A DNA stretch of 32,405 nt from Pseudomonadota bacterium (GTDB lineage: Bacteria > Pseudomonadota > Gammaproteobacteria > Burkholderiales > Sulfuriferulaceae). Position numbers and translations under genes: made by a program. Position 1 is the stretch's first letter. The number at the start of each line of letters is the position of its first letter. Below are positions 8,828 to 12,324 of this stretch, one piece after another. The notes below the pieces were generated by a model, which was not told the origin of the DNA, made no database searches, and saw only the letters and a program-made list of their open reading frames with translations. The DNA lies in assembly GCA_021790515.1 (NCBI GenBank), contig JAJYHV010000055.1, forward strand, positions 1 through 32,405. Direction: 5' to 3'.

Positions 8828-11255
<2,428 letters not shown>

Positions 11256-11430
11256 TCATCCTGTCTCTGTCTGCCGGCACAACATCAGGGAAGCGGTTTG
11301 GCAAGACCGCATGACTTCAAACCAGCAACTTTACCGCCAACTACTGCTGCAGCCTGACAAACAGCAATTTTCTCACGATACCTGACACGGCAATACACTG
11401 GCAAGATTTTTTCAAACAAAAAAATCGCAA

Positions 11431-11458
11431 GGAACTTTTGTTTCATACCCCCCTCAAA
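11431..11458 (+). promoter_or_regulatory. Sigma-E (RpoE)-type promoter
   Basis: GGAACTT at 11431-11437 and TCAAA at 11454-11458 are separated by 16 nt. Both boxes match the known extracytoplasmic sigma-E consensus exactly. Transcription would begin about 6 nt after the -10 box, at about 11465, which is the first base of a chain of stem-loops. No protein gene lies downstream on this strand before 12325. Confidence 0.7.
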
Positions 11459-11464
11459 GCCTGC

Positions 11465-11571
11465 AGATGGTTGTGTACCATCTCCCGCTTCTCCTCCCTG
11501 AGCGGGCGCCCTGGCATCTGGTCAGGGCATTTTGGCCTCGGTTATTCTTCCCCTTTTAACCGAGGTTTTTT
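11465..11571 (+). ncRNA. Predicted sigma-E-dependent small RNA with anti-SD loops
   Basis: This is a candidate small RNA of about 107 nt made of four adjacent hairpins. SL1 is AGATGGT/ACCATCT (11465-11483, loop TGTGT). SL2 is CCCGCT/AGCGGG (11484-11506, loop TCTCCTCCCTG). SL3 is GCCCTG/CAGGGC (11508-11528). SL4 is CCTCGGTTA/TAACCGAGG (11536-11565), followed by six T. SL2 and SL4 loops are pyrimidine-rich and complementary to Shine-Dalgarno sequence, as in known regulatory RNAs such as Rhodobacter CcsR. The exact sigma-E promoter just upstream and the U-tract on the same strand support transcription from the plus strand. No family assignment is made. Targets such as outer-membrane protein mRNAs are inference. 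Confidence 0.65.
11536..11571 (+). terminator. Rho-independent terminator of the small RNA
   Basis: A 9-bp perfect stem CCTCGGTTA/TAACCGAGG with a 12-nt pyrimidine-rich loop is followed immediately by TTTTTT (11566-11571). The right arm and U-tract lie opposite the last codons and stop of engB (stop at 11556-11558). On the minus strand the hairpin lacks a T-run, so it terminates only plus-strand transcripts. Confidence 0.82.
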
Positions 11572-12227
11572 GTGTCTGCAAGATTCGTACATGCCACATT
11601 ATCAATCACATCAACAGGTATGTCAGCAGGCGTTTCCGGATCCAGCCATGCCGTCAGAACAGCCTCGGCCTCGGCCGCCCCGCTTTTTTTCAAACTGGAG
11701 AATAATTGCACACTAAAGTGCGGGGACATCTGCCTGAGTGCCGCCCGAACCTGCCGCAAAGCGATCGCTGCCGCGCTGCGACTCAGCTTGTCACTTTTGG
11801 TCAACAAACAATGCACCGGCTTGCCAGTGGGCAAAAACCAGTTCAGCATCACCCGATCCAGTTCGGTCAATGGTCGACGGATATCCATGATCAGCACCAC
11901 CCCTCGCAAGGGAACCCGCGTTTGCAGATAATCCCCCAGTAAACCACGCCAATGGTCTTTGATGGCACCTGGCACCTTGGCGTATCCATACCCCGGTAAA
12001 TCGACCAGATAACGGCCATCCCTGAGCACGAAATAATTGATGTGCTGCGTGCGCCCTGGTGTCTTGCTGACAAAAGCCAGCCTGGTCTGGTTGGCAAGCG
12101 TGTTAATGGCGCTGGACTTACCCGCGTTGGAACGTCCGGCAAAAGCGATTTCTCCCGAACTGTCTGCCGGCAGGTCATTTAAGTGATTTACTGTGACAAA
12201 AAATCGGGCGGATTGAGCAAAATTCAT
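11556..12227 (-). CDS. engB: Ribosome biogenesis GTP-binding protein EngB/YsxC
   Basis: EngB is an essential TRAFAC GTPase needed for 50S subunit assembly. All G motifs are present: G1 GRSNAGKS, G2 TPGRTQ, G3 DLPGYGYA, G4 TKSD, G5 SSLKKSG. The start is placed at the ATG encoding [10 protein letters not shown], with AGGA upstream, giving 223 residues. The frame extends upstream to a GTG at 12257, but those residues do not fit the family. The C-terminus has an extra tail after the GTPase core, and its last codons are opposite the terminator of the predicted small RNA. Confidence 0.95.
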
Positions 12228-12324
12228 GAAAAATATATCCTGATGTCGTTTCATCACTGGCGTGAAAAATAAAATGCAGCTAGAATATTGGCTTTGGGCA
12301 TATCTAAAGCAGAGGAGCTAACAA

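Follow-up and report, generated by a model that had tools for sequence, protein, structure and literature searches.

The window (the whole stretch of 32,405 nucleotides that was analysed) carries on its plus strand, at about 11464-11573, a small RNA which, on its match to the family model, is a member of the catalogued family RF02837 (anti-hemB), known as ncS04 in Burkholderia cenocepacia, and which stands behind a conserved promoter of the sigma-E type. We consider it likely that this is a sigma-E-induced, Hfq-dependent, trans-acting small RNA that occludes ribosome-binding sites with two C-rich loops.

The promoter, GGAACTTTTGTTTCATACCCCCCTCAAA, is found at 11431-11458 (+) and consists of GGAACTT (-35), a 16-nt spacer and TCAAA (-10), exactly as claimed in the initial annotation of this DNA. 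The pattern GGAACTTN15-17TCNAA has a single match in the whole window, where 0.03 would be expected, and was found in 3 of 100 shuffles. Judging from the position of the -10 box, transcription would start at about 11464-11466, and the 5' end given above for the RNA is placed in the same way, with the remainder defined by cmscan and the fold. The fold of the plus strand downstream of the promoter consists of four hairpins, ending in the terminator (-49.5 kcal/mol, z = -6.1, equalled by 0 of 200 shuffles), while the complementary strand gives a weaker fold (z -4.8) and has no U-run behind its stems. On the plus strand these hairpins are SL1 (11465-11483), a 5' hairpin of variable sequence lying mostly beyond the Rfam model; SL2 (11484-11506), with the anti-Shine-Dalgarno loop CUUCUCCUCCCUGAG, contained in TTCTCCTCCCTGAG; SL3 (11508-11528); and the terminator hairpin SL4 (11534-11571), whose C-rich loop UUCUUCCCCUUU is contained in ATTCTTCCCCTTTT and which is followed by six U. 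The hairpins had been described as contiguous and perfect, with a 9-bp terminator stem and six T; the fold, the stem and the T-run were all recovered, but SL3 has one G-U pair among its pairs and is hence imperfect. The terminator stem comprises 9 Watson-Crick pairs and two G-U pairs that use the first two of the six T, and with its loop of 12 nt it is missed by a simple terminator scan with a limit of 8. A consensus scan found no sigma-70-like site on the plus strand within 11235-11700.

On the minus strand, the small RNA is flanked by hemB (porphobilinogen synthase; ORF at 10224-11234; NF006762, 503.7 bits; PF00490, 458 bits), which diverges from it, and by engB/ysxC (ribosome-biogenesis GTPase; ORF at 11556-12257; TIGR03598, 226.5 bits), which converges on it. 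A weak sigma-70-like site directed toward hemB, seen by consensus scan alone, lies at 11375-11404 (-), just upstream of the small-RNA promoter on the opposite strand. The initial annotation had the plus strand free of protein genes here; the small RNA does occupy it, but the terminator overlaps engB by 16 nt (11556-11571), where the RNA is antisense to the 3' end of that minus-strand gene.

The RNA had also been called unannotated, which is true of the window and not of the family. Using cmscan, RF02837 anti-hemB ('Burkholderia RNA 7') was matched at 11481-11573 with 70.7 bits against a gathering threshold of 49.5, over model positions 1-81 of 81; the second Rfam family above threshold in the window is a tRNA located elsewhere. 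Of 61 genomes, made up of the window's own and 60 relatives, 48 have an anti-hemB match above cut-off, as do 190 of 300 genomes of the order; at E 1e-6 the RNA is found in 97 of the order's 134 genera. A phylum-wide sample of 398 genomes gave 21 above cut-off, all of them within the same order. The family is therefore spread over the betaproteobacteria, beyond Burkholderia. One genome of the same genus as the window (G005) has no anti-hemB RNA above cut-off. The 281 loci collected were reduced to 232 rows by leaving out 11 that were sub-threshold, 23 without SL2 by pattern (some of these, such as L017, being above-cut-off members with variant loops) and 20 duplicates; 230 rows had sufficient upstream sequence. 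In 195 of 232 rows hemB lies upstream, and in 189 engB lies downstream, each on the strand opposite to the RNA, while 18 rows have engB upstream and on the strand of the RNA itself. Another 10 rows have none of the three marker genes near the RNA, flanks being short at some loci.

The window's own genome has one anti-hemB copy above cut-off. Two sub-threshold matches were rejected as paralogues and left uncounted: the one on contig C44 is a terminator just past an ORF, and the one on C45 (L003:1499-1557) is an RNA resembling RF02278 (Betaproteobacteria toxic sRNA; 43.5 bits, cut-off 50), which carries anti-Shine-Dalgarno stretches and has a TTAGAAAATTCTAA palindrome in its upstream region. Five genomes (G286, G636, G050, G478 and G663) have three to six anti-hemB matches each, some under cut-off, and in G050 (L011) about 180 bases separate two copies, with a stress-type promoter before each. 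A metagenome bin titled Klebsiella pneumoniae (L117) has a betaproteobacterial hemB/RNA/engB locus that clusters with betaproteobacteria in the tree described below, and the record is probably mislabelled or contaminated. At a sub-threshold anti-hemB match outside the order (L077:1506-1583), a suhB/mmgR RNA fits better (62.3 bits); it too has a CCUCCCU stretch.

Conservation of the promoter in related genomes, proposed as a check in the initial annotation, was found at most homologous loci. Each row was scored for the best GGAACTT-N15-18-TCWNA within 75 nt before SL2, with a maximum of 11 and a threshold of 9. Among the 155 rows without a Burkholderia-type -10 box, a sigma-E-type site scoring at least 9 is present in 131 and missing in 24, while the controls give 11 for the preceding 75 nt, 3 for the reverse strand and 0 for the downstream sequence; at a score of at least 10 the numbers in the same rows are 108 versus 1, 0 and 0. 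Over all 230 rows, 174 have the promoter versus 13 and 3 in the upstream and reverse-strand controls and 110 of 2300 shuffles, and within the window's genus it is found in 17 of 17. The distance from the -10 box to SL2 is 23-32 nt in 129 of the 131 promoter rows and follows the length of SL1, and the aligned RNAs, when trimmed at a constant spacing from the -10 box, start a few bases ahead of SL1. The spacer sequence is unconserved. Per-column frequencies are circular at the AAC core, the class having been defined by GAAC; the scorings of 131/155 and 174/230 are non-circular. This is strong evidence, drawn from sequence comparison, that an ECF promoter is under selection before the anti-hemB RNA. 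The strict bare motif shows no genome-wide enrichment over its reversed pattern (5 matches versus 7 in the own genome, 57 versus 202 in 17 relatives), and because its frequency does not exceed that control, the meaning of the motif rests on conservation and position. In the window, as expected of a sigma-E-dependent small RNA, the conserved sigma-E-type promoter is positioned at the predicted start.

The structure of the RNA is conserved together with its promoter. For the covariation analysis we aligned 45 diverse sequences that have both the promoter and the second loop, out of 48 selected (one too short, one truncated and one loopless sequence were dropped). The RNAalifold consensus contains 28 pairs, and 21 of these have changed on both sides, so that the compensatory changes anticipated in the initial annotation are indeed seen. 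In total there were 148 double-change cells against 35.5 expected from shuffles, a number reached in 0 of 500 shuffles and falling to 7-34 when the partner was slid. Covariation is seen in SL1, where 6 of 6 consensus pairs have changed on both sides, in SL3 and in the stem of the terminator; the sequence of SL2 hardly varies. In the terminator loop a CCCC core is kept while the stem changes, in an alignment set selected for having that loop, and conservation of a loop over a changing stem is as would be expected for a binding site. Loop classes were assigned by folding, which placed a C-rich terminator loop in 115 of the 131 promoter-bearing homologues; after the other 16 were read by eye the count became 121. 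The six rows wrongly scored as loop-negative, the window's own among them, visibly have a C-rich loop, and the tree of HemB and EngB discussed below therefore shows some false loop changes.

The likely reader of the promoter would be RpoE. In the window's own genome, rseA (PF03872) and rseB (PF03888) come after the end of rpoE on contig C80. It could be argued that the RNA is real but that its conserved promoter answers to a different stress through an ECF sigma factor that is not RpoE, since an AAC -35 core is common to ECF groups and the own genome has three further, weaker sigma matches to the RpoE model, below cut-off. We regard this as quite unlikely, as rpoE was present in 15 of 15 genomes tested and the same full motif precedes rpoH: in the own genome GGAACTT-N16-TCTCA (L288, C19:15394-15421, minus strand) is placed 41 nt ahead of the start of rpoH, and at the loci fetched four relatives likewise have this motif type before rpoH. 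In E. coli, rpoH is a classic sigma-E target and has a sigma-E promoter, and the sites found here suggest a conserved link from sigma-E to sigma-32. The 300 nt before rpoE contain a site scoring 9-10 of 11 in 11 of 15 genomes versus 1 of 15 in the 300 nt beyond; five of these 11 look like one shared site at 260-290 nt, perhaps coding, and the upstream sites would be mildly supportive of rpoE autoregulation, on which our reading does not lean.

A possible mechanism begins with envelope stress, which would induce transcription of the anti-hemB RNA from the sigma-E-type promoter, presumably by sigma-E itself. The SL2 loop CUCCUCCC and the SL4 loop CUUCCCCUU may then pair with the Shine-Dalgarno regions of many mRNAs and so block their translation, while SL1, SL3 and the terminator stem would form a scaffold for stability and for Hfq binding, the latter being presumed in this organism. 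That both loops are complementary to ribosome-binding sites had been claimed from the window alone, and it is borne out by their sequence and by the pairing energies with leaders. Against control leaders bearing a Shine-Dalgarno sequence the loops reach a mean of -10.8 kcal/mol (n=77), versus -5.4 for random windows (n=20, own genome only), a contrast that is partly trivial because these leaders had been selected for a Shine-Dalgarno sequence. Across 11 genomes of the genus, exact loop-complementary sites before ATG are about as frequent as chance would give (10 versus 7; 5 versus 8), and one of the two such matches in the own genome is the RNA's own antisense.

The initial annotation went further and proposed that outer-membrane protein mRNAs in particular are repressed, in the manner of MicA and RybB. 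The conserved envelope-stress-type promoter would fit such a role, and a review lists hemB as the predicted target and RybB as the similar RNA of Burkholderia Bc7 (PMC6321483), which, going by the Rfam name, is probably the same RNA as anti-hemB. From 28 porin loci we retained 26 (one had no start codon and one was mis-started), 24 of them with a cognate RNA. For this one porin family, the 24 leaders pair with SL2 no better than the 77 controls (means of -10.4 versus -10.8 kcal/mol, p = 0.45), nor do they pair better with SL4 (p = 0.58, the SL4 segment being mis-cut in at least one genome, G031); the test is a strict one, the controls having been selected for a Shine-Dalgarno sequence. A specific repressor of outer-membrane protein mRNAs is thus unlikely, and the negative porin test favours a broad translational repressor under envelope stress.

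The name of the family implies instead a cis-antisense regulator of the engB-hemB region. The placement between these genes is conserved in the proportions given above and the terminator does overlap the engB end by 16 nt, but this overlap is minimal and the hemB gene is missed entirely; read along the minus strand, a promoter-like site for hemB comes downstream of the RNA, several copies exist in some genomes (G286 among them), and conservation falls on the loops and stems, all of which makes cis-antisense control very improbable. Few hemB leaders were usable for a pairing analysis (15 ECF rows and 3 others). It could also be imagined that the anti-Shine-Dalgarno loops make the RNA a sponge or a ribosome-directed RNA that titrates other regulators and not mRNAs. 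The loops are generic and neither the loop-complement nor the leader-pairing tests found a specific conserved target, but the C-rich-loop RNAs described in PMC3771888 and PMC11722255 act on mRNAs, and we give this idea hardly any credence.

Not all members of the family have the form found in the window. In 75 rows with a Burkholderia-type promoter the region reads GGTATATCATA or GGTATATGATA, which includes a sigma-70-like -10 box; 72 of these rows belong to Burkholderia, Paraburkholderia, Caballeronia, Trinickia and Pararobbsia, and none of the 75 has the C-rich terminator loop. At the B. cenocepacia locus L134 (a different strain from that with the published length), counting the published 105 nt back from the end of the U-run, taken as the 3' end, puts the start 6 nt past TATGAT, as for a sigma-70 promoter. 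In a tree of HemB and EngB from 115 rows, the 16 sampled Burkholderia-type rows form one clade (support 100) among stress-promoter rows; its neighbours include one row from the Oxalobacteraceae that has both promoter and loop, and two that have just the promoter, in these at an unusual distance. This nesting argues that the stress-promoter form is probably the older one and the Burkholderia form derived, although the tree is a quick, midpoint-rooted one whose deep branches are weakly supported, and it is no proof of the direction of change. The simplest account would be that in the Burkholderia clade a sigma-70-like promoter replaced the stress promoter and the second loop was lost. A GAAACTT-like -35 box remains in 35 of 41 Paraburkholderia rows versus 2 of 18 Burkholderia rows, and in many Paraburkholderia one stretch fits the pattern GAAACTT-N17-TCATA and can equally be read as a sigma-70-like -10 box, possibly an intermediate form. 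Eight rows of another family (f45) have neither promoter nor second loop. We give even weight for and against the wider proposal that anti-hemB served ancestrally, and throughout the order, as the RNA arm of the betaproteobacterial sigma-E response, acting as a two-loop global repressor, with the Burkholderia form as its rewired remnant. Anti-hemB may also be an instance of a small RNA that switched sigma factor during evolution.

While the family is known, its sigma-E-controlled form has probably not been described so far. We found no report of sigma-E control or of a second loop for anti-hemB, ncS04 or RF02837 in the open-licence literature, nor, judging by titles and the beginnings of abstracts among the papers listed from that literature, of a betaproteobacterial sigma-E small RNA comparable to the enterobacterial ones. 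In enterobacteria, sigma-E small RNAs lower protein synthesis during envelope stress; the anti-hemB RNA with a stress promoter is a good candidate for the missing RNA arm of this response in betaproteobacteria. A conserved sigma-E-type promoter before a catalogued but functionally unexplained RNA also makes a direct and cheap test possible.

Among known systems, the Rhodobacter CcsR RNAs are tandem RNAs with CUCCUCC loops under RpoH control, whereas the window's RNA has one above-cut-off copy and a sigma-E-type promoter. The analogy to CcsR drawn in the initial annotation holds as a resemblance and goes no further, other small-RNA families being far under their thresholds at this RNA. The promoters of the enterobacterial MicA and RybB are of the same sigma-E type as that in the window, but the window RNA has no Rfam match to either and no preference for porin leaders in the one porin family compared. 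In Bordetella, the MicA-like CT_532 is reported to be unaffected by loss of RseA (PMC12235514). ErsA of Pseudomonas (RF01719) is described as sharing both the control by an envelope-stress sigma factor and the repression at ribosome sites that we propose here (PMC6321483), and its family model has a C-rich stretch, as does the window RNA; the score of 17.8 bits, against a cut-off of 50, makes this a likeness only. Similarly, sX13 of Xanthomonas (RF02232) has three stems whose C-rich loops act on G-rich sites near start codons (PMC3771888), but the window RNA scores 16.7 bits against a cut-off of 50 and sX13 is reported as Hfq-independent (PMC3771888). Its score for ar14 (RF02344) is likewise below the family's cut-off (21.8 bits versus 58.8).

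Closer in lineage are S17 of Bordetella, an anti-Shine-Dalgarno sRNA reported to repress via ribosome sites (PMC11722255), and CT_433 and CT_521, with targets at ribosome sites (PMC12235514). S17/CT_433 and RF02278 are, like the window RNA, betaproteobacterial and have anti-Shine-Dalgarno sites, with many targets reported for them (PMC11722255, PMC12235514); S17 differs in its locus, between BP3151 and coq7, and in its sigma-A promoter, and has been likened to RF02278 (PMC11722255). The closest relatives are the Burkholderia members of RF02837 itself, which share with the window RNA the full-length model match, the SL2 loop and the hemB/engB locus. Anti-hemB of B. pseudomallei is listed as a trans-acting RNA (PMC3521395), and ncS04 of B. 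cenocepacia is given as 105 nt long, with a confirmed 3' end and with Hfq binding cited (PMC5688073). The experimental data that we found on the family all come from the Burkholderia clade. The Burkholderia RNAs have a sigma-70-like promoter and no C-rich terminator loop, while the RNA in the window has a sigma-E-type promoter and two C-rich loops. ncS04 was unchanged across the seven conditions of one qPCR table (PMC5688073), and we suggest that the B. cenocepacia homologue stayed flat there because its promoter differs in this way from that of the window.
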